Positions 20,557 to 29,886 of a stretch of 64,000 nucleotides of DNA are shown piece after piece. The notes under the pieces were generated by a model. The model did not search any database, was not told the origin of the DNA, and was given only the letters and a program-made list of their open reading frames with translations. This DNA comes from Bacteroidales bacterium (GTDB lineage: Bacteria; Bacteroidota; Bacteroidia; Bacteroidales; P3). The stretch spans positions 1 to 64,000 of the forward strand of contig JAFZXE010000012.1 of assembly GCA_017616895.1 (NCBI GenBank), written 5' to 3'. Positions within the stretch are counted from its first letter, which is position 1, and each line of letters opens with the position of its first letter. Made by a program: the position numbers and the translations under genes.

Positions 20557-20653
20557 CGGTCAGCAGTTTGTTGCCATTTGGTTTTTGTCAGAATGTTTCC
20601 TCACGAGAAAGTGTGGAGATTATGGAAGTTCTATTCTTGCTGTGCTCTAAATT

Positions 20654-20885
20654 TTCGGTCAGTTTTGGCTCGAAAAAATGACGAGTTTATATGTGAATTG
20701 AGAGGGCATTTAGTGGTTTTGTTTTGTCATCTGTTACCCTTGTTTCTGTTGTGTTTGGAAACGCCAGGTTTGAAGCTATGCTAAACGGGAATCCTATGTA
20801 GCATTAGTGTATTTGTTCTGTCGAAGTCGAGAATTACAAATTCTCTTGTTAAACCATTGCGGATGTGTCATCCGCAACAATGGGT
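20654..20885 (+). repeat. Island hairpin repeat, copy 1
   Basis: First of four related copies in this island. It contains TTTTGGCTCGAAAAA, a central segment ending in AACGGGAATCCTATGTAG, then two perfect hairpins: GAGAATTACAAATTCTC (20829-20845) and TTGCGGATG/CATCCGCAA around TGT (20857-20877). A short open frame across it (20578-20784) is not considered a gene. The other 232 bp of this 464-bp gap hold only the 45-bp inverted repeat below. Confidence 0.8.
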
Positions 20886-20970
20886 ATTTCAAGACAATCA
20901 AATACGAACCCTGTGGGATGCCGACAAAGAACCATATCCGAAGTGCCGTTGTCTAAATGTTGACACTCAC

Positions 20971-21015
20971 CTTCGGTCGGTGCAAATGTACAAATAAAAT
21001 CCAATCGACGAAAAA
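20971..21015. repeat. 45-bp inverted repeat, left copy
   Basis: It matches 28018-28062 in opposite orientation with two differences over 45 bp. On the minus strand it holds TACATTTG, a -7-like box. It sits immediately beyond the stop codon of the AAA ATPase and points away from it, toward repeat copy 1 with nothing coding between. Confidence 0.8.
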
Positions 21016-21020
21016 TGGAT

Positions 21021-22475
21021 TTATGGGATCGCTGAGAACAGATCATCCATAGTTACCTCTCGTTGGACCACATGAGAATATTTGTTTTGCTTAATCCCAT
21101 ATGTCGTTATAAGCGTTGTATGTAGTGACTTGCGTGTGCCTGTGACTGTTCGGAATGTTTCCCTGCGTGAGTTCAGTCGTTCGGCATAGTCCTCCGTGAT
21201 GGCATACGGCTCTACGGAGAACTTGGCCTCACATAGATTCACTGTTTCGTCCCGTCGGTCTATAACGAGGTCGATTTGTGTCCCCTTGTATTCATTGCCG
21301 TCTTTGTCGGTAAATGCCTTGCACTCCCACGAACAGACATTACTTAACACACCAAGGATGCCCAGTCGCTGTTTTATTTGGTCAACATGGTGCAGGCATA
21401 CTTGCTCAAAGGCATAGCCCTGCCATACATGCCGTCGAGGGTTGTCCTGCATATTGCTCCAGAATCTTGAGTCCTGGCCGTTCGATTTTTCCACAAACTG
21501 GAGATGGTAAAGAGAAAAAAGGTCTATAAGTTGGAATATCTGACCGTGCTCTTTTTTCCCAAAGGCTGTATAGCGACGAATGAAATCGCACTTGCATAAA
21601 TTTTCGAGGACCTCGGTCAGTAGCCCACCGTCTTCCATGCCCAGAGCTTTCTGAATATCCATGCGGGTCATTCCGTGCCTTTTCTCCGACAATAGTTCCA
21701 CAACATTACGATATACCTTTGAATTTTTAAACAGCGAGCGGAATATAAAATCGTATTCTGCGCGGAGCGCTGCACCCTCTTCAAAGAAAAGATGGTCAAT
21801 GTTTTCATTCAAAGACATATTGCCCTCTATCATATCAAGGTAGTAGGGAATGCCTCCGATGGTCATATACGCCTCTACAATCTGATACCTGTCCCAATCT
21901 ATTTTTTTGTTTCGTAAGAAATGCTCGGTCTCATAAAGTGTGAAAGGACGCAAGTATATTTGACGATTCACCCTTCCATGCAACCCTCCCTTGTCTCCTA
22001 TAAACTTAGACATCATCCACGTCGTGGCAGACCCGCACACAAACAATTTGAGTCCCTCTATCGTGGATGCCCAATTGTTCCAAAAAAAGCTGAAGGCGGA
22101 GAGGAAGCCAGACTTTGGAGTGTCCAACCACGGTAGTTCGTCAATGAACACTATAATACGGTCTTTTTTTAACGACGAGAGATAATCCCGCAGTTGAGAA
22201 AAAGCCTCGTACCAGTCTTTTGGTTTCAGCAATTTTCGACCAGAGTACCGTTCCAACTCCTTCTTGAACAGGGTGAGCTGCGTGCTACGCGGTGTCTCAA
22301 ATGATCCTGTGAAACTAAAGTCAAACTTGCCGTCAAAAAACTGTTTTATCAAGTAGGTCTTACCTACACGTCGACGCCCATAAACTGCCACCAGTTCGGC
22401 CTTGGGTGTTTCGCAGTATTCAGTAAGAAGATCTTGTTCATGTCTGCGCCCTATGATTTTCGAATTATATTCCAT
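21021..22475 (-). CDS. AAA ATPase with DUF234-type C-terminus
   Basis: 484 residues. Walker A is GRRRVGKT (33-40), Walker B is IIVFIDELPW, and CGSATTWMMS matches a sensor-1 region. This is the archaeal-type ATPase_2 family. A winged-helix-like middle (MTRMDIQKALGMEDGGLLTE) precedes a C-terminal PD-(D/E)xK-like core (IDLVIDRRDETVNLCEAKFS). Such proteins are abundant in Bacteroidetes and poorly understood; a nuclease or regulatory role is inferred from the fold. It is monocistronic with its own TATCTTTG box. Its stop is followed by the 45-bp repeat and hairpin repeat copy 1. Confidence 0.88.
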   Translation of the reverse strand: MEYNSKIIGRRHEQDLLTEYCETPKAELVAVYGRRRVGKTYLIKQFFDGKFDFSFTGSFETPRSTQLTLFKKELERYSGRKLLKPKDWYEAFSQLRDYLSSLKKDRIIVFIDELPWLDTPKSGFLSAFSFFWNNWASTIEGLKLFVCGSATTWMMSKFIGDKGGLHGRVNRQIYLRPFTLYETEHFLRNKKIDWDRYQIVEAYMTIGGIPYYLDMIEGNMSLNENIDHLFFEEGAALRAEYDFIFRSLFKNSKVYRNVVELLSEKRHGMTRMDIQKALGMEDGGLLTEVLENLCKCDFIRRYTAFGKKEHGQIFQLIDLFSLYHLQFVEKSNGQDSRFWSNMQDNPRRHVWQGYAFEQVCLHHVDQIKQRLGILGVLSNVCSWECKAFTDKDGNEYKGTQIDLVIDRRDETVNLCEAKFSVEPYAITEDYAERLNSRRETFRTVTGTRKSLHTTLITTYGIKQNKYSHVVQREVTMDDLFSAIP

Positions 22476-22505
22476 TCTGTTTGTTTTTCGTGGTGTTTAC
22501 GAATG

Positions 22506-22513
22506 CAAAGATA
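22506..22513 (-). promoter_or_regulatory. -7 box for the DUF234 ATPase
   Basis: TATCTTTG on the minus strand, 30 bp upstream of the ATG, is a perfect TAnnTTTG match. Confidence 0.65.
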
Positions 22514-22750
22514 CAAAAAAAAGTCGATATTGGTTCCGAATACATCATTTTACCCACAAAACGGAACAATTATCCCCAAGCATTTATAAATGTATTCCAA
22601 CCTTTATATTCCATTTCTTAAGCTTTATGTTACTCCGCTGCCTTGACCCTTGACTCTCGACAAAAAAACGGTAAACATTAAACGGTAAACCAAATAAACT
22701 GTAAACGGTAAACAAACCCAATAGTTTAGCGGCTATCAGACAGCGGACAC

Positions 22751-22900
22751 CTCTTACCTTTGTTTCTGTTTTGGTTGGAAGTGCTAGGTGGAGATCAAGC
22801 GCAACGGGAGGCTATGTAGCGTTCGTGTATTCGTTCTGTCGAGGTCGAGAATTACAAATTCTCATGTACAACAGTTGCGGATGATACATCCGCAACAACG
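22751..22900 (+). repeat. Island hairpin repeat, copy 2
   Basis: Closely related to copy 1: shared TTTGTTTCTGTT, CTATGTAGCGTTCGTGTATT and the hairpins at 22847-22863 and 22874-22896 (10-bp stem GTTGCGGATG, loop ATA). It follows the candidate immunity gene at 23010 by about 115 bp. Just before it, 22665-22715 is a small tandem array of AAACGGTAAAC. Nothing else is seen in this 534-bp gap apart from the ATPase promoter. Confidence 0.8.
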
Positions 22901-23009
22901 AGGACAATATGGTATGAGGCCAATTGTCACCCTCAATTATAGATTATTGCCATTGTTTTTTAGTCGAGACTGAGGATTTGTCGTGGATAATATCTCACGA
23001 CGACGGGTG

Positions 23010-23597
23010 TCATCTTAAAAGTTCTTCAGGAACATATGAATCAACGGAAGAATCGTAGATTATTTCACCTTTGTCATTGGTAATCATTTGCATCTGCATA
23101 TGATTGCCATTCCATTTTGCCACTAATGAATAAGACGGTCTCTCTTCTTCATTGGTATAATCTTCATACAGAATATCATGCTCTGAGTAGGAAACGCATT
23201 CTACTATCTCGTATTCTCCAGACTCAGACATGACTTTATTGTATGGCATAGTTCCTGATATCAAAACATTAAAGCCTTTATAATGAGCCATTTTTCCATA
23301 CTCAACCATTGAAGAGAGTACCCTCACCCCAAGCGAGTTGTCTTTTACAACATGAATCTCACAGCATTGTCCAATAGCATCAATAAACGTAATGGATATT
23401 TTGTCGTTATCGGACACCCCAAATCCATTGTGTTGTTCCAACATAATTAGCGTATCAACGATATGGAGAAATGGAGTGTCCTTAAATTGCATGACCGGAA
23501 TTCTACAGAGGCTATCAGTCGTTTGTGAAAAGGCGCTCTCTCCCAAAACAAGCATGAGGAGGATAATGAAAAATCTTTTCATAGTATTAACAGTCAT
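23010..23597 (-). CDS. Secreted candidate immunity protein 1
   Basis: 195 residues of an unrecognised family. The first ATG overlaps the toxin stop as ATGA, showing translational coupling to the upstream RHS-JAB gene. A second ATG at 23582 starts a signal peptide (KRFFIILLMLVLGESAFSQ) directly. The mature protein is acidic (EYEIVECVSYSEHDILYEDY). Its place right behind a toxin tip makes it the candidate cognate immunity protein, acting in the periplasm if exported. Immunity is inferred from position only. Confidence 0.7.
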   Translation of the reverse strand: MTVNTMKRFFIILLMLVLGESAFSQTTDSLCRIPVMQFKDTPFLHIVDTLIMLEQHNGFGVSDNDKISITFIDAIGQCCEIHVVKDNSLGVRVLSSMVEYGKMAHYKGFNVLISGTMPYNKVMSESGEYEIVECVSYSEHDILYEDYTNEEERPSYSLVAKWNGNHMQMQMITNDKGEIIYDSSVDSYVPEELLR

Positions 23598-24457
23598 TTT
23601 CGTTTACCTTGCCATGTGGCATTTTTCCACTTTACTCCCATCCTATCATCTTGACAGCCACGGCTGTTGTATTCTGTATAGCCTGTTCGTGGTGTGTATG
23701 TGTGCAATTTGATGCCGGGATGATTCTTCTCGTGTACCGCAGCAGCCCCCAAATCTTTTCCAGGATGGCCTGAGTCGCCGGTAGGCATCGGATCTCCTAA
23801 TGGGTGGTTGTGGGTGCCATCAAAAAGTGAATAACCGTTATTGGTCAAGTCCGAAAACAAATGTATACCATGTTCCCCATGGTTTGTTCCTATAACATTG
23901 GATTCGTCGTCACTTTTCGCAAGTGTGGCATGAGCCCATTCCAATGGATACCCTCCATCTGCCGCATAGTTTGCCGCGATGAACTGGAATAATTCTTCTG
24001 CATGTTGATTACCGCAAACGGAAAAAGAGGTTGCGTCACTATTAGCAAGTTTTAGTTCAGAGATTGAACCTACTTCATACTGATGACTGCTCGCTAAAAT
24101 ATTACCATCGTCGTCAACAAGATGTATTTGATCATAATTGGAATTATCAACTTTTTCGACAATGTTACCACATTTGTCGATCTTCCATTCATCCATTTCC
24201 ATCCCGCTCGGATCCACCAGCCTCATTGGATTCCAGGCACAATAGTTGTACGGACTCAAACTTGGATACTTGTCAGCCATCGGATCCACACTCAGCCATA
24301 AACTCAGGTCAGAATTGTAGTACCTTGCACCAAAGTAGTGGTACCCCGTTTCCGAGTCTTTCTCTTTGCCCGAGGAGTCCGAGTAAAAAACAGGGGTGTT
24401 TTTCAGCCAATTTTGGCTCGAAAAAGAGGTGGGGCTATATGTGTGTTGGAAGAGCAT
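23594..24457 (-). CDS. Orphan RHS tip fused to a JAB-like toxin domain
   Basis: 287 residues. Residues 29-86 are the very end of an RHS core (SGKEKDSETGYHYFGARYY, NYCAWNP, DPSG); the rest of an RHS shell is absent. The C-terminal domain (about 130-260) has PLEWAH and then HNHPLGDPMPTGDSGHPGKD, resembling the catalytic Glu and HxHP...D site of JAB/JAMM metallopeptidases, with an insertion before the Asp. Polymorphic toxins with JAB-like tips are known. The first 28 residues are encoded by hairpin repeat copy 4, so the start is uncertain and the gene is probably a displaced cassette. Confidence 0.75.
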   Translation of the reverse strand: MLFQHTYSPTSFSSQNWLKNTPVFYSDSSGKEKDSETGYHYFGARYYNSDLSLWLSVDPMADKYPSLSPYNYCAWNPMRLVDPSGMEMDEWKIDKCGNIVEKVDNSNYDQIHLVDDDGNILASSHQYEVGSISELKLANSDATSFSVCGNQHAEELFQFIAANYAADGGYPLEWAHATLAKSDDESNVIGTNHGEHGIHLFSDLTNNGYSLFDGTHNHPLGDPMPTGDSGHPGKDLGAAAVHEKNHPGIKLHTYTPRTGYTEYNSRGCQDDRMGVKWKNATWQGKRK

Positions 24458-24532
24458 TTACAGGGTTTGTTCTGTCATGTTTTTCATTTTAGTGGAGTGT
24501 TGGATTGCAAATCCGGCACAACGGGAATTATC
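24405..24532 (+). repeat. Island hairpin repeat, copy 4 (truncated)
   Basis: Shares TTTTGGCTCGAAAAA, the GCATTTA...TTTGTT...TGTCATG stretch and a final ACAACGGGAAT with copy 1. It lacks the two terminal hairpins. It begins 3 bp after the stop of candidate immunity gene 2 and runs into the 5' end of the RHS-JAB tip. Confidence 0.72.
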
Positions 24533-24534
24533 TT

Positions 24535-24999
24535 TTACACTTTAACAGGATAATATTTTTTTTCTAAAATAGCCTGAATTAAGTCATCTGGTTTACTTAT
24601 TTTGTTACTTACATTATAGATATTCAAATCACGTGTTTTTTTGTCAAAAAAAACAAAGTATGTAGAAGTACTTCTTCCCCCCTTTCTATAAACAAAGAAA
24701 ATATAATTTTTTTTTCTTCCTCCAAATAATAGTTGTCTTCTCGGAAAAAAAGGATAGGTGATAACGTCTGTTGAATTGAACGATTTGCCGGGGTCAGCGA
24801 GCCAGAAGTGAACACTATATCTTTCCTTTATTATTTTTTTTACTATGTATGGGATTTCTTTTTTGCTATAAAAAAGAGTTGTGCTATCATTGGTTAATAC
24901 ATTATAGATTTCAGAGTATTTAGAGTAAAGCTCATCTATTTGCGCAAATACGAAGGGAATATATATCATAAAAAGAATTAAGGTTAGTGTCTTTTTCAT
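24535..24999 (-). CDS. Secreted candidate immunity protein 2
   Basis: 154 residues with a signal peptide (KKTLTLILFMIYIPFVFAQ). No family is recognised. The mature part is Lys/Tyr/Phe-rich with a predicted beta pattern (NYIFFVYRKGGRSTSTYFVFF). It lies 12 bp after the end of the broken RHS metallopeptidase gene on the same strand, the usual immunity position. AT-rich compared with the chromosomal genes, consistent with transfer. Immunity is inferred from context. Confidence 0.68.
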   Translation of the reverse strand: MKKTLTLILFMIYIPFVFAQIDELYSKYSEIYNVLTNDSTTLFYSKKEIPYIVKKIIKERYSVHFWLADPGKSFNSTDVITYPFFPRRQLLFGGRKKNYIFFVYRKGGRSTSTYFVFFDKKTRDLNIYNVSNKISKPDDLIQAILEKKYYPVKV

Positions 25000-25011
25000 T
25001 GTCTCTTTATT

Positions 25012-25910
25012 TTACTCAATATTTTCTATGCTGGTTGAGTTTTTTGATTTAAATGAGATTCCGTCGTGATTTGTTCTGACACCTTCTCCAAGAATCCTAG
25101 CAGCTGGAGTTTCTACATTTTCAATAACCCACTTCTCTCCCATAGTATCATATTGATTGTCCGTATTGAGCATATTGCGTTTTTCCTGTTTTGAAGAATA
25201 GAAATCAACAAAAGCGTGCCCCATTTCATGCAGTAAACCTAATGCGGGGCTTTGCTTACCCCGGTTTTTTCTCCTTCATCATTAATTATTTCCAATCCAG
25301 ACTGAGGATGATATTCAATTGTTTTTGACAGTCCTTTGTAACAATCTTCGCCAATACGTCCTTTTTTTATCTTAACAGTTTTTTCTTGATCATTAGCAAG
25401 TTTCGTAATAATACCTTTTGAATCCCCTTTAATTACATAATTAAGTGCATTTACTGTTTCTTTCACAAATGGATTATTACCAGAATACTCCATATTGGGT
25501 ACATAAACAATATGCTTCTTTCGTTCAAAAAGCCTAGCTATTCCAGTTTTATTTTTGTAGTATATCTTTATGTCTTGTCCATTCGGATCCACCAACTTCA
25601 TAGGATTCCAGGCACAATAGTTGTATGGACTTAAATTCGGATACTTGTCACTCATTGGGTCAACACTCAACCACAAACTCAGGTCGGAGTTATAGTACCT
25701 CGCACCGAAGTAATGATAGCCCGTTTCTGAGTCTTTCTCCTTGCCGGAGAAAGTGTAGCGTTCTTGGTATGACGATGTCCGTTGGTCTAACTTTGTTTCG
25801 CCATAGGGTAAATACTGCATGTGTTGAACCGCTTGGCCAGATGAGTCGGTAATCCAGCTGGCGCTGCCGAGGTGGTCGGGGTGATATTTTATTTGGGGTG
25901 TTGGGGGCAT
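25012..25910 (-). pseudogene. Orphan RHS tip with M91-like metallopeptidase, frameshifted
   Basis: The upstream frame carries RHS core (YHPDHLGSASWITDSSG, then SGKEKDSETG... to DPNG) and a toxin region ending EGEKTG, then stops at 25239. The downstream frame supplies KQSPALGLLHEMGHAFVDFY, a zinc HExxH site, and continues to 25012. Inserting one G into the GGGG run near 25259-25262 joins them as TGGKQSPALGLLHEMGHA. Spacing and motif resemble the M91 effector-peptidase family found in RHS tips. ATG 25910 is preferred because an upstream TTG lies inside the promoter. Could be decay, phase variation or a sequencing error. Confidence 0.78.
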
Positions 25911-25928
25911 GGGTGAGGTTTGATTGTG

Positions 25929-25936
25929 CAAAGGTA
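25929..25936 (-). promoter_or_regulatory. -7 box for the RHS metallopeptidase module
   Basis: TACCTTTG on the minus strand, 19 bp before ATG 25910. It shows that the truncated RHS tip has its own promoter rather than being part of a long RHS gene. The remaining 300 bp up to 26251 contain a TTAGCAGTTAGCGGTTAG repeat and the ATPase promoter, with no gene. Confidence 0.6.
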
Positions 25937-26222
25937 CGAAAAAAAATTAGCAGTTAGCGGTTAGTGTGGCCTTTCGGCTAACGATGACGAAAAAAAACGT
26001 ACTGCCGTGTGCTGGATTTTTTGCGTGCGCTGGTTGGCAAGATACCTTTAGGTGTCATTCTGCACACCCTAAGAAATCCCTGTTTCGCCCGAAAGTGTGT
26101 ATGTCTTAGGGAAATCTCGAATGTGAATCACATTATACCGTATTCCGGACAAAATACCTTTACATTTTAGCGTATTTTAGTGGGTGCATTTTGGTATTTT
26201 ATCGTAATTTTGATTGTTTTTG

Positions 26223-26230
26223 TATCTTTG
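26223..26230 (+). promoter_or_regulatory. -7 box for the DUF4143 ATPase
   Basis: TATCTTTG, 21 bp before the ATG; perfect TAnnTTTG match. No convincing -33 element. Confidence 0.6.
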
Positions 26231-26251
26231 CACTCAAAATAACTGAATAAT

Positions 26252-27529
26252 ATGATTGACGAAAAGGTTATTCTCCAGGTATTGGCAGAGCAACAAGAGG
26301 AAATCAAGGGTTACAAACCTCAGAAATGGGTGTCGCGTAAAGAGGAGTCACTATTTGAGTTCGATACCAAGATGGCTCAAGTGGTTATAGGTGTTCGACG
26401 TAGTGGAAAATCGACGTTGTGTCACAAGGTGTTGTTGGAACGGGGCGTCAGATACGGCTATGTCAACCTAGACGATGACCGTCTGGCCAAAATGGAAGTG
26501 GGAGACTTGAATACGGTGCTCTCTTGCGTGTATCAACTCTACGGGACAGACGTTCCTTATCTGGTTCTGGACGAGATTCAGGATGTGGACGGATGGTATC
26601 TCTTTGTGAACCGACTGCTCAGGACAGACCTGCGAATTTTTGTCACGGGCAGCAATGCCAAACTGTTGAGTGGAGAATTGGCCACCCATCTGACTGGACG
26701 CTACAACGAAATCCATCTATATCCTTTCTCGTTTTCGGAGTATTGCCAATACCACCATGTTGACACGCGGGGTATCACCACCAAGGCCGACGCCGAGCGG
26801 AAGCGAGCTTTTATGGAATTTGTTCACGATGGCGGTTTCCCGGAAATGCAGGGGCTCCGGAACAAGCGGGCATACGTCCAGAGCCTGATTGAGGCCATAC
26901 TGCGCAAGGATATCCAGCGTCGTTTCAAAATTCGTAACATCGAGGCATTGCGTAAACTGGCCCATCACATGATTAACAATGCCTGCCAGGAGGTGAACTA
27001 TGATGCGCTGTCAGAGTTGTTGGGCATTGCCGACAAGACAACGAAGAAATATGTTGACTATCTCTGTCAGGCTTTCTTGATACAGTTGCTGACAAAACAC
27101 TCATTCAAGAGCAAGGAACGCATACGCAACCAGAAGGCATATATAGTCGATACGGGGTTGGAGGGAAACCGCGAGAATGCGTTGGCACCCGAGAATCTCG
27201 GGTGGCGTCTGGAGAATGTGGTATATATTGAGTTGTTGAGACGCTGTGCCCATGACTTTCTGGATGTGTACTATCATAAACCGGATTCAAGGGCCAAGGA
27301 GATAGACTTTGTGGTGTGCGATAAAAACAAGGCTGTGGAATTGATACAAGTAGCATACGAGATTGACACCCAACGGACTTACGACCGCGAGACATCATCG
27401 CTTGTGAAAGCATCGGACACTTTTTCTTGTAGTCATCTGACCCTCATCGCATTCTCGCCAACTCGCGATGTAGAGATTGAAGGGAAAACCATCCATATCG
27501 TTTCGGCATTGGAGTGGTTGTTGGGATAA
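26252..27529 (+). CDS. AAA ATPase with DUF4143 C-terminus (island)
   Basis: 425 residues. Walker A is GVRRSGKS, Walker B is YLVLDEIQ, and FVTGSNAKLLSGELATHLTGR is the family sensor/arginine stretch of AAA_14/DUF4143 proteins. The C-terminal nuclease-like core reads EIDFVVCDKNKAVELIQVA, where the usual catalytic Lys of ExK is Gln, as in one known subfamily. It is monocistronic and lies between the RHS metallopeptidase promoter and a truncated integrase, which it apparently disrupted. Function unknown; defence or regulation has been suggested for such ATPases. Confidence 0.88.
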   Translation: MIDEKVILQVLAEQQEEIKGYKPQKWVSRKEESLFEFDTKMAQVVIGVRRSGKSTLCHKVLLERGVRYGYVNLDDDRLAKMEVGDLNTVLSCVYQLYGTDVPYLVLDEIQDVDGWYLFVNRLLRTDLRIFVTGSNAKLLSGELATHLTGRYNEIHLYPFSFSEYCQYHHVDTRGITTKADAERKRAFMEFVHDGGFPEMQGLRNKRAYVQSLIEAILRKDIQRRFKIRNIEALRKLAHHMINNACQEVNYDALSELLGIADKTTKKYVDYLCQAFLIQLLTKHSFKSKERIRNQKAYIVDTGLEGNRENALAPENLGWRLENVVYIELLRRCAHDFLDVYYHKPDSRAKEIDFVVCDKNKAVELIQVAYEIDTQRTYDRETSSLVKASDTFSCSHLTLIAFSPTRDVEIEGKTIHIVSALEWLLG

Positions 27530-27971
27530 TCGGTGAGCTTCCCTGGATTAATATAAGGTTTTCCTGTTTATATGCATGGTGCAGCACGCAGGCGAGCTTC
27601 TGGAAATACAGACGGACGGTTCTGCGTCCAAGCCCTTGGCTTTCCATGTACGTGATGAAGTTTTGAAGATAGGCCGTGTCGATTTTCTCCATTTCTATGT
27701 CGCCGTAGGTCCTGAGATGCCTCAGCATCAGCAGGTATGATTTCTTTGTCTTTTCCTTGACGTGATGGGATGCTGCAAAATCGCTTGCGTATTGCACTAG
27801 GCTTACCGGCACTCGTTCTTCTGCCTGCTGCATTCCGAAGTCGGCCTCATAGTGGTACTGGGATTCGGTCGTGGTAGACTCGGATTCGATGGTGAGCGTA
27901 ACGTTTCCGTCTGAGGCATAGTTTATTGCGCTGATGCGGAACGGGAAATTTGAATTGACTGTTAGTTTCAT
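27444..27971 (-). pseudogene. Truncated tyrosine recombinase (N-terminal part)
   Basis: 175 residues. Residues about 1-60 fit the Bacteroidetes integrase N-terminal arm domain and 60-150 the SAM-like core-binding domain (KEKTKKSYLLMLRHLRTYG, LQNFITYMESQGLGRRTVRLYFQKL). It stops there: the catalytic domain with R...HxxR...Y is missing. The last 30 or so residues are read antisense through the end of the convergent ATPase gene, so the break lies just after 27529. It keeps a TAATTTTG box at 28006-28013. Probably a remnant of the element that brought the island. Confidence 0.75.
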
Positions 27972-28005
27972 GATGGAGCGTTTTTGTGTGTTTTCAATGC
28001 AGCTC

Positions 28006-28050
28006 CAAAATTACTTTTTTTTCGCCGATTGGATTTTATTTGTACATTTG
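28006..28050. promoter_or_regulatory. Divergent -7 boxes between integrase remnant and RHS tip 3
   Basis: Minus: TAATTTTG at 28006-28013 for the integrase remnant. Plus: TACATTTG at 28043-28050 for the RHS tip. The plus box lies within the 45-bp repeat shared with 20971-21015. Confidence 0.5.
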
Positions 28051-28062
28051 CACTGACCGAAG
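28018..28062. repeat. 45-bp inverted repeat, right copy
   Basis: Opposite-orientation partner of 20971-21015 (43 of 45 identical). Here it forms the apparent promoter region of the third RHS tip. Confidence 0.8.
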
Positions 28063-28158
28063 GAATATGCCATCGTATAGAAAACGTCTCTTCAAATATT
28101 GCTTGTTTTTAGAAAAATATACAACTTTTTTAGTAGTGCTAATCCCTCAACTCTTCCG

Positions 28159-29016
28159 ATGACCACGACAATGTCAGTACATGGAATCTATTGTTCTTTC
28201 TCGGGCAAAGAGAAAGACTCGGAAACGGGTTACCACTACTTCGGTGCAAGGTACTATAACTCTGACTTGAGTTTGTGGTTGAGTGTTGACCCGATGGCAG
28301 GCAAGTATCCAAGTTTGTCCCCGTACAACTATTGTGCCTGGAACCCAATGAAAATAGTGGATCCAGATGGGATGGAAACCATTGACAATGACGATGGGTG
28401 GCTGGTAAACCACGAAAAAAAGACTGTTACACGGATTAGTGATGTAGGAGGAAACAGAAAACAATATGCTACAGACAGAGATGGGCACACGGTTTCCTAT
28501 GAAATGGGGGTAGGGGATTTGAAAAAAATGTATCAATCTAAAGGATACACAATAAAAGAATCTTCATCATCTAAAATTGGCTCAGGTATTATTGGAGGTT
28601 CTTCATTTTCTTCTATTTTAAAACAGTTTTTAGTGAACCCTGCAATTGATAATTTTCAAGGACTACAACATAATTCAGATTGTCTTGGTCTCGGAATAGA
28701 CTATTCCTCTGAAATAAGCAAGTTAAATAAAATAAGCAGGCTGGCAAGTGGCTCAGGGAAGTTATTGGGTACTTTAGGATTTGTTTTCTCTGCTTACCAA
28801 TTGACCAATGACAACAATATTGAGGACGCAACATTTCATTCTATGGATATTATTATGGGAGGTGTGGGCACAATCCCACACCCTGTAACGTTCGGTTTGT
28901 CTGTAGGATGGGGATTGTTTGGTCGTCAGACAATTAAATCTCAAGCTGAATCTTTTAAAAGGCAAATAGATGCTGGTTTTAATCCTGGACACTGCTCATA
29001 CATGCCTTTCAAATAA
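28159..29016 (+). CDS. Orphan RHS tip with unknown membrane-active-like toxin
   Basis: 285 residues from ATG 28159 (ATG 28171 or an upstream TTG at 28099 are alternatives). RHS core end at 28201-28371 (FSGKEKDSETGYHYFGARYY to DPDG) is nearly identical in DNA to the other two tips. The remaining 210 residues match no toxin family I recognise. They include Gly/Ser-rich hydrophobic stretches (KIGSGIIGGSS, GKLLGTLGFVFSAYQ, SMDIIMGGVG, VTFGLSVGWGLFG) seen in putative membrane-active RHS tips. A membrane protein gene follows 11 bp later and could be its immunity partner. Confidence 0.72.
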   Translation: MTTTMSVHGIYCSFSGKEKDSETGYHYFGARYYNSDLSLWLSVDPMAGKYPSLSPYNYCAWNPMKIVDPDGMETIDNDDGWLVNHEKKTVTRISDVGGNRKQYATDRDGHTVSYEMGVGDLKKMYQSKGYTIKESSSSKIGSGIIGGSSFSSILKQFLVNPAIDNFQGLQHNSDCLGLGIDYSSEISKLNKISRLASGSGKLLGTLGFVFSAYQLTNDNNIEDATFHSMDIIMGGVGTIPHPVTFGLSVGWGLFGRQTIKSQAESFKRQIDAGFNPGHCSYMPFK

Positions 29017-29027
29017 AAAAATGGCTT

Positions 29028-29468
29028 ATGAAAATATATCTGTATTGTTTTTACATGTTTGTCCGGATGTGGAAGAATTCCTTGATTTGCGATACGAAAT
29101 ATTCAATATTAACCTATGATAAATCGTATTCCATACTGGCATCATCTATGGCATTAGTGTCACTTATTCAGATTTCAAACATAAACACAATACTGATTTT
29201 ACCGGTTATTCTAATGCAGAAAAAAATTTCCGCGGATTTTCTTGTTGCGATTGTTTTTATTATCGGGATAATCAATATTTTTGTTTTAAATAAGGAACGG
29301 CTATACCGAAAGGCTGAATCACGGTGGAAGGATGAACCAGAAAAAAAAAGAATGCTTAATAGATGGATGGTTATTATTTTTTTCGTGGTAAGTGTAATTA
29401 TGATGTTTATATCAGCTAAAATAGTCTATATTCCACATTCAATGACTTTTCATTATTGGGGGAATTAA
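29028..29468 (+). CDS. Membrane-protein candidate immunity protein 3
   Basis: 146 residues with three hydrophobic segments (around 40-62, 68-88 and 112-132) separated by a charged Lys/Arg/Glu loop (KERLYRKAESRWKDEPEKKR). No family recognised. It lies 11 bp after the third RHS toxin on the same strand. Polytopic immunity proteins commonly protect against membrane-targeting toxins, which fits the hydrophobic stretches of the partner. The function is inferred from position. Repeat copy 3 begins about 15 bp after the stop. Confidence 0.68.
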   Translation: MKIYLYCFYMFVRMWKNSLICDTKYSILTYDKSYSILASSMALVSLIQISNINTILILPVILMQKKISADFLVAIVFIIGIINIFVLNKERLYRKAESRWKDEPEKKRMLNRWMVIIFFVVSVIMMFISAKIVYIPHSMTFHYWGN

Positions 29469-29476
29469 ATACATAT

Positions 29477-29640
29477 CCTGTTGTTGCGGATGACACATCC
29501 GCAACGGTTGAACAAGAAAATTTGTAATTCTCGACCTCGGCAGAACGAACACACGAACGCTACATAAGATTCCTGTTGCGCCGTATTTCCAACCTGGCGC
29601 TTCCAACCAAAACGGTTGTTGTCTTGCGCTGAAAAACGGT
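29477..29640 (-). repeat. Island hairpin repeat, copy 3
   Basis: Reverse-oriented copy: GTTGCGGATG/CATCCGCAAC hairpin at 29483-29505, the second hairpin slightly decayed at 29516-29534, then CGAACGCTACATAAGATTCC and GGCGCTTCCAACC. It follows candidate immunity gene 3 in the same relative orientation as copies 1, 2 and 4 relative to their upstream genes. Confidence 0.8.
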
Positions 29641-29654
29641 CTGCCGACCGACCA

Positions 29655-29690
29655 CCGAAGGGTCGCCGAAGGATCGCCGAAGGATCAAAA
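29655..29690. repeat. 11-bp GAAGGATCGCC tandem repeat
   Basis: Three near-copies of an 11-bp unit (GAAGGGTCGCC, GAAGGATCGCC, GAAGGATCAAA), directly after repeat copy 3. Function unknown. Positions 29691-29886 show nothing further. Confidence 0.65.
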
Positions 29691-29886
29691 GCTTAATATT
29701 TGAAAATCAGTACTTTGTAAATTATTATAGAGTTTTTACATAAAATCTTGTTTTTCAAGAAGATAAATTATCATGATGGGTGACGGGCATCTGGTGAGTC
29801 CTCCCATATATGTAATGACCCGACGAAATGTTAAATTAGTCAGTGGCTGTGTTAAAATTTCTTGTTTTTTTAGTGAAATTGATTTC

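Follow-up and report, generated by a model that had tools for sequence, protein, structure and literature searches.

How stored RHS toxin-immunity cassettes are brought into use, and whether a dedicated enzyme moves them, is the question raised by a locus of a Bacteroidales bacterium (assembly GCA_017616895.1). The window analysed here is a 64,000-nucleotide stretch, positions 1 to 64,000 of contig JAFZXE010000012.1, and its part from 20,654 to 29,640 carries orphan RHS tips, each followed by a toxin region and a small putative immunity gene. A first-pass annotation had proposed that the conserved tip and a conserved 3' repeat act as homology arms for cassette exchange. The present analysis points to a different arrangement, in which integron-like cassettes would be moved by a linked tyrosine recombinase at the 5' end of the tip, the window copy being frozen. 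We give this reading an even chance. The tyrosine recombinase that marks these loci did not figure in the first-pass annotation.

Cassette arrays and their composite repeat

The source assembly comprises 2,613,366 bases in 31 contigs and is 88.24% complete. A tip peptide search located 21 RHS tips at five places (six in C4, five each in C25 and C28, three in C24, which is the window, and two in C10), a wider pattern than the three window tips first described. The tips form eight co-oriented arrays: two cassettes to the left and one to the right in the window, five and one in C4, two and three in C25, five in C28 and two in C10. Divergent array pairs, separated by a centre that spans a few kilobases, make up three of the five places; in C28 and C10 the arrays reach contig ends. 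Each cassette runs from tip through toxin region and putative immunity gene to repeat. By manual count a repeat copy follows all 21 cassettes, 13 times at a junction and eight times at an array end, the array-end copy in C10 being only partial. The search recovered the three window tips where they had been placed, and their divergence into different toxin regions and small genes was confirmed. Their DNA, described as nearly identical, proved to be 84-87% identical from tip to tip.

Distribution of the repeat follows that of the tips. With 29477-29640 as query, 18 matches were obtained in the source assembly at E <= 0.01, all within the five tip places, and no copy was found outside the arrays. 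The 11 longest matches (52-164 nucleotides) and a 47-nucleotide match in C10 share the orientation of their own array; the other six are 22-26-nucleotide matches on the palindrome. The contrary outcome named by the first-pass annotation, scatter across the genome in random orientation, was thus not encountered in this assembly. Its account of copy orientation relative to the gene and of a fourth copy after an ATPase gene (21021-22475) stands.

The repeat itself is composite. Its three components are a palindromic module of about 135 nucleotides, which some of the copies have, a short inverted repeat, and a segment continuing into the next tip. In each of the 14 internal-type cassettes the tip is preceded, at a distance of exactly 84 nucleotides, by an in-frame ATG that opens a 28-residue leader; this set includes C4:62429, whose tip leads its array. 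The other seven tips include three heads with an ATG at -42, two with a 54-residue RHS core piece, and two (in C10 and C28) at contig ends. The apparent 3' arm of one cassette is therefore largely the 5' leader of the next. Since a 28-codon leader within the repeat opens the gene of the following cassette, the repeat is not simply a 3' homology arm. Swappable cassettes bounded by tip and repeat still look correct, and it is the role assigned to the repeat that is unsupported, its tip-side half coding for the next start. Nor is it quite the same repeat after each gene, although copies are present. The copy at 24405-24532 gave no hit against 22751-22900 or 29477-29640 and matches only the other half of the composite, best seen in the fullest window copy at 20641-20900 (75% over 84 nucleotides). 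Across 19 junctions the tip-side half has a mean column identity of 67%, and its best conserved block is the junction of leader and tip. The upstream palindrome folds as a conserved hairpin in 10 copies; its stem is conserved and covariation is weak, with both-sided changes in only two of 23 predicted pairs.

Cassettes recur as units. When the parts behind the tips were compared by blast (hits of at least 250 nucleotides), homologous toxin-immunity units were found in different genomes. The C4:59361 unit matches one in G014 at 71% over 1276 nucleotides, and the window unit behind the tip at 24203 matches a G014 cassette at 70% over 1166 nucleotides; the neighbours of these two pairs show no mutual match at the same threshold. 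C28:87404 shows 71% identity over 1177 nucleotides to a G038 cassette whose tip open reading frame (ORF) runs off the contig start. By eye, the toxin at the end of a long G014 RHS ORF, which likewise runs off the contig start, resembles the JAB toxin of the window (23594-24457). Guanine-plus-cytosine content is about 28-42% in putative immunity genes and about 36-51% in orphan tip-bearing ORFs.

Some tips lie at contig edges. By manual count, 13 of 143 tip matches start within 300 bases of a contig start, and several others end near a contig end; G041, G014, G003, G033, G045, G028, G054, G038, G022, G002 and G053 are involved. Such edges may mean that repeats were collapsed in assembly, or that the population sampled contained cassettes in more than one order; the latter would be evidence of shuffling.

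The linked tyrosine recombinase and the proposed core codons

In the congener G041 the recombinase is intact (331 residues; Phage_integrase PF00589, E 4.9e-24). It lies between a divergent array head that reaches the contig end and a gene on its own strand encoding a 447-residue protein with a type IX secretion system (T9SS) sorting domain (L031:14392-15735). Downstream of the latter come a 3107-residue RHS gene with its immunity gene, then a copy of the repeat and an orphan tip that is truncated. The first-pass annotation had named a repeat behind the immunity gene of full-length RHS loci as supporting evidence, and this one congener provides it, with the repeat running into an orphan tip. 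The protein of about 450 residues is possibly a delivery or surface partner.

The complete layout is an orphan array pointing away on one side, then the tyrosine recombinase, the protein of about 450 residues, an RHS of about 3000 residues and a further orphan array, all in the opposite direction. Four loci show it with RHS read through to the tip. Besides G041, these are G109, G085 and G082, in which the intermediate genes encode 462, 433 and 455 residues and the RHS genes 3056, 3056 and 2994 residues, respectively. A second orphan array follows the tip-bearing RHS in these three, and one truncated cassette does so in G041. Directly after RHS, in the expected immunity slot, an ORF of at least 90 residues is listed in G082, not in G109 or G085.

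Relatives of the recombinase occur at 22 places in 19 of 120 genomes of the genus (E <= 1e-40). A stretch was read at each of the 22, and in 20 cases it carries an RHS-tip ORF; of the other two, L071 has a tip fragment only and L056 begins at a contig edge. Sixteen of the 22 keep the divergent head layout, the remaining six being contig edges or rearranged remnants. A family-wide scan at E <= 1e-60 found a relative in 15 of 190 genomes, one of them outside the genus. A distant tyrosine recombinase also lies near RHS tips in another family (L084 of G318; profile E 1e-13). All 12 near-complete recombinases aligned retain the residues that we take to be catalytic, and L065 lacks 19 residues elsewhere. 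A 7-7-7 inverted repeat was seen by eye at some heads (L057, L065, L068).

The enzyme falls well short of the curated integron-integrase model. Four recombinases scored 74.0, 59.8, 60.9 and 61.6 bits against TIGR02249 (IntI), whose cut-off is 265, and none of the curated recombinase models listed for them reached its own cut-off. The best solved structures by sequence are XerC-like, XerA and IntI4. An origin from phages or plasmids was considered and rejected: matches in phage and plasmid records (28 and 41 records) all fall below 60% identity and reach at most 35% among the 16 listed (8 of 28 and 8 of 41), and a viral scan for relatives found none.

The C4 centre holds a second remnant of the gene in addition to that of the window, and a profile search turned up further remnants where the arrays of G046 and of G048 have their centre. 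Array-centre genes include an AAA_14/DUF4143 ATPase in the window, Bro-N in C4, a DUF6088/AbiEii pair in C25 and DUF1016/YhcG in some relatives. Centres in which the recombinase is truncated or missing (the window, C4, C25, L033, L047) hold such defence-like or odd genes, as if the recombinase gene had repeatedly been replaced and the array frozen.

From the way such enzymes work, sites recombined by one of them are expected to be identical within a genome and to change between genomes, here over some 12-18 nucleotides. A six-frame search gave 129 tip matches, some partial. The 45 tips with all 57 codons served for reading codon identity, and sets of 105, 116 and 120 tips for later comparisons, the 116-tip set covering 22 genomes and the 120-tip set 21 genomes with two or more tips each. 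Synonymous sites vary freely along the tip except near its 5' end. In the source genome, codon 2 is GGC and codon 4 is GAG in all 21 tips. Over all pairs of the 116-tip set, the ratio of within-genome to between-genome synonymous variation is lowest at codons 2, 4 and 1 (0.09, 0.19 and 0.24) and amounts to 0.49-1.19 at the other variable tip columns.

When each genome of the 120-tip set was given equal weight, the ratio was 0.11 at codon 1 and 0.51, 0.46, 0.45 and 0.55 at codons 2, 3, 4 and 5; codon 6 gave 0.73, codons 7-19 gave 0.57-1.00 and codon -2 gave 1.04. These values are nearly unchanged when the source genome is omitted. Across 40 genome resamplings, codon 1 ranged over 0.06-0.19, codon 2 over 0.20-0.56, codon 3 over 0.29-0.88 and codon 4 over 0.44-0.85. 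In 13 of the 15 genomes that have at least three tips, codons 1, 2 and 4 taken jointly are less variable than the rest (sign test, about 0.004). As a control, 26 tips of other families passed the motif filter; they came from three of five genomes, effectively two (G266 and G273 gave none and G263 one), and showed no dip at codons 2 and 4 (0.66 and 0.97), codon 1 being unscored. A site-specific crossover core would be expected to vary little within a genome, as the first tip codons do.

Anatomy of the window copy

The window holds a left array, a centre and a right array, with the following features.

20641..20900, minus strand: terminal composite repeat, containing the palindromic module and part of the leader
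20934..21015, minus strand: second copy of the array-head upstream region, 82% identical to 28018-28099
21021..22475, minus strand: ATPase_2 family gene between two repeat copies (PF01637, E 5.7e-16)
22748..22899, minus strand: long repeat copy after the second cassette
23010..23597, minus strand: putative immunity gene, 195 residues; no Pfam match
23594..24457, minus strand: internal cassette gene, leader, tip (24203-24373) and JAB-like toxin (PF15659 Toxin-JAB1, E 2.5e-9)
24374..24520, minus strand: junction repeat, made up of a short inverted repeat and the 28-codon leader, which opens the next cassette gene (ATG at 24457)
24535..24999, minus strand: putative immunity gene, 154 residues, by its position after the toxin; no Pfam match
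25012..25224, minus strand: 70-residue ORF in another frame directly after the left-head toxin region, opening at MGHAF
25239..25931, minus strand: left-array head cassette, short RHS core piece, tip and start of the toxin region, 230 residues
25578..25748, minus strand: RHS tip of the left head cassette, 57 codons (tip search E 1.9e-36)
26252..27529, plus strand: AAA_14/DUF4143 ATPase gene in the array centre (PF13173, E 6.7e-32; PF13635, E 1.1e-22)
27561..27971, minus strand: tyrosine recombinase gene remnant, N-terminal part only (PF13102, E 1.4e-14)
28018..28099, no strand assigned: head upstream region with TTTGTACATTTGCA, between the recombinase remnant and the right array
28159..29016, plus strand: right-array head cassette, 14-codon leader, tip (28201-28371) and toxin region; no Pfam match
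28195..28212, plus strand: proposed recombination core at the leader-tip junction
29028..29468, plus strand: putative immunity gene, 146 residues, membrane-type; only sub-cut-off Pfam matches
29477..29613, plus strand: terminal long repeat copy of the right array

The recombinase remnant is 73% identical to the G041 protein across residues 1-136. Both a full-length RHS gene and an intact recombinase were sought in the window and neither was found; therefore this copy is probably frozen. In the source genome as a whole, the first 300 residues of one RHS gave no match as query, in an assembly that is 88% complete. The motif TTTGTACATTTGCA at 28018-28099, which also precedes the G041 array head, is presumably promoter-like, judging from the Bacteroidetes consensus. 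The ATPase_2 gene at 21021-22475 can be read either as a non-RHS insert, or a cassette or passenger, or as the scar of a lost array.

The left head cassette has a counterpart at the C25 head (93582), whose upstream region and core piece are similar. Its toxin (25012-25931) looks split over two frames. The two codons upstream of the 70-residue ORF read H-E on direct reading, which gives HEMGH, a motif that we take to be zinc-peptidase-like and that lies in the second frame; a Pfam search of this ORF found no match. Several toxin regions in C4, C25, C28 and the window carry HExxH-like motifs (such as HEIFH, HELFH, HELKH and HEIGH), and many immunity proteins of cassettes at the same four places start like signal peptides or lipoproteins. 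Together these features suggest periplasm-directed peptidase toxins.

An element with short GGATCGCCGAA-type repeats occupies 29622-29790, and copies lie at three array ends (C24, C25, C4). It was considered as an array boundary site and rejected, because three of its 10 matches are those array ends and the rest, a longer copy at C1:19391 and six short ones, are spread over other places, which makes it a dispersed element.

Proposed mechanism, rivals and known systems

Under the integron-like reading, a cassette would start in the first tip codons and end at the start of the next tip. The complete form, as seen in relatives, has the tyrosine recombinase between two divergent arrays, one starting at a short leader beside it and the other at the C-terminal tip of the downstream full-length RHS. 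The enzyme would cut at a short core at the junction of leader and tip, or of RHS core and tip. Acting on direct sites, it would excise or insert cassettes; acting on the divergent ones, it would flip the segment that holds the recombinase and RHS. With either outcome, a stored toxin and its immunity gene would become joined to the full-length RHS and older cassettes would be pushed down the array. Cassettes would move in this manner, and a swap would change the weapon.

Several observations weigh against this reading. An attC-like hairpin in the leader was tried as a candidate and is unsupported, as a common fold gave no predicted pair in the 19 junction leaders. Codons -1 (0.32, resampled 0.06-1.05) and 0 (0.00, nearly always TTC or TCC) are little informative, and the left halves of internal and head sites differ in the source genome. 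G098 and G092, the two exceptions to the pattern at codons 1, 2 and 4, both have a near-complete recombinase, and codon 1 dips no less in the 12 genomes without an intact recombinase (0.07) than in the nine with one (0.16). Some of the former keep remnants, and none was found in G003, G026 or G038. The control is noisy, three unrelated columns standing at 0.27-0.35. In G014, where a repeat after the immunity gene of the RHS ORF would have matched the expectation of the first-pass annotation, none was seen by eye. Of 14 cross-genome cassette pairs chosen, one was not found and 13 were scored (shorter matches, for example of 330, 290 and 287 nucleotides, were unused); the paired tips are not clearly more similar than other tips from the genomes concerned (Kolmogorov-Smirnov p = 0.15). 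A tip that always travelled with its toxin would not be expected to give this result, and tips may therefore be either homogenised within genomes or exchanged apart from toxins. Finally, no excision circle, inversion, strain pair or any other recombination product was seen.

Part of this evidence would suit ordinary orphan Rhs arrays, in which homologous or illegitimate recombination within the tip, an origin proposed for enterobacterial Rhs and contact-dependent inhibition (CDI) loci, adds or displaces cassettes and the recombinase lies nearby without taking part, or serves another purpose. This explanation seems to us possible, on the doubtful side. Tips as similar as those of the window (84-87%) could pair, they do not clearly travel with their toxins in the 13 pairs, and arrays with the codon dip persist where the recombinase is broken or not found. 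Moreover, orphan CDI modules extend from VENN to VENN, with the exchange mechanism called unknown in a passage of PMC3150448. Recombination anywhere in the tip accords poorly with low within-genome variation that is concentrated in the first codons and not spread along the tip, and with one recombinase lineage at the array heads in a fixed divergent layout, whose relatives in phage and plasmid records are distant (below 60% identity) and absent from the viral scan.

An inversion-only device would give the recombinase a narrower part: the recombinase-RHS segment would flip between divergent arrays and switch the first cassette joined to RHS, array growth having another cause. The geometry is suitable, in that the head site and the RHS-core site of complete loci are mutually inverted around the recombinase and both mostly carry TTC before the tip. 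We consider it improbable, given that it leaves unexplained why deep array junctions share the same core codons and that no inverted pair of loci was seen, among one genome per species. Still further from the evidence lies an origin of the repeats from dispersed mobile elements, REP/RAYT-like or of another kind, that inserted next to RHS genes. The conserved hairpin of the long module recalls such elements, yet the source genome has neither a match in a search for the Y1 transposase (Y1_Tnp) nor a repeat copy outside the arrays, the longer copies are uniformly oriented, and the tip-side half is an in-frame leader. The distribution contradicts this origin, which was rejected as extremely improbable.

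In integrons, a recombinase gene diverges from a co-oriented cassette array with array-specific repeats, and older cassettes are displaced. The loci described here share a divergent recombinase, co-oriented arrays, array-specific repeats and, as proposed, displaced older cassettes. They differ in that the enzyme is far from the curated IntI model, the leaders lack an attC-like common fold, and the proposed core would lie inside coding sequence and join in frame. Neither an IntI-type integrase nor attC sites with a conserved single-strand fold was found. With a tyrosine recombinase linked to their arrays of orphan RHS cassettes, the loci suggest integron-like working rather than a demonstrated integron.

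A close likeness in array content is to the orphan rhs-CT/rhsI and cdiA-CT/cdiI arrays of Poole 2011 (PMC3150448), in which toxin-immunity modules stand in tandem, a conserved peptide-coding sequence bounds them, and other strains carry their homologues on full-length genes. The tandem tip-toxin-immunity modules of this study are likewise homologous to full-length RHS C-termini (by eye in G014), and an array follows a full-length RHS in G041, G109, G085 and G082. They differ from those arrays in the 28-codon leader with its own ATG in 14 of 14 internal-type cassettes and in the tyrosine recombinase that marks the loci in relatives. Also in Bacteroidales, recombinase-associated acquired interbacterial defence (rAID) combines a predicted tyrosine recombinase, a co-oriented low-GC gene array and conserved intergenic motifs in the description excerpted from PMC12247911, and on that description it is alike in all three elements. 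As described there, rAID arrays hold orphan immunity genes. The present arrays combine tip, toxin region and putative immunity gene, are not toxin-free (toxin regions lie behind the tips, one with a Pfam toxin match), and in complete form include a full-length RHS gene. Effector-immunity displacement arrays of the Vibrio cholerae type VI secretion system (Kirchberger 2017, PMC5361080) similarly keep old immunity genes downstream of new modules; in passages of that paper the authors draw the integron likeness themselves and state that there is so far no evidence for integrase-aided insertion. The loci studied here differ from them, as there described, by a physically linked recombinase candidate. 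XerC/D genes adjoin some polyimmunity loci, where a role has been called conceivable (PMC3482391). Among the open-licence papers listed in literature searches, judged by their titles or the openings of their abstracts, none reports RHS cassette arrays with a tyrosine recombinase.

If the integron-like reading is correct, any stored cassette would be joinable in frame to the delivery protein together with its own immunity gene, and orphan cassettes would retain their own start codon while stored. That the loci amount to a second natural integron-like system, devoted to weapons used between bacteria, in which a non-IntI tyrosine recombinase of a Bacteroidales lineage captures and shuffles RHS toxin-immunity cassettes at a core within the RHS coding sequence, we regard as rather unlikely. 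A passage of PMC3150448 calls the mechanism of C-terminal toxin/immunity exchange unknown; a linked recombinase and a core site that can be located would make that mechanism directly testable, and the recombinase would offer a natural enzyme for in-frame module swapping.

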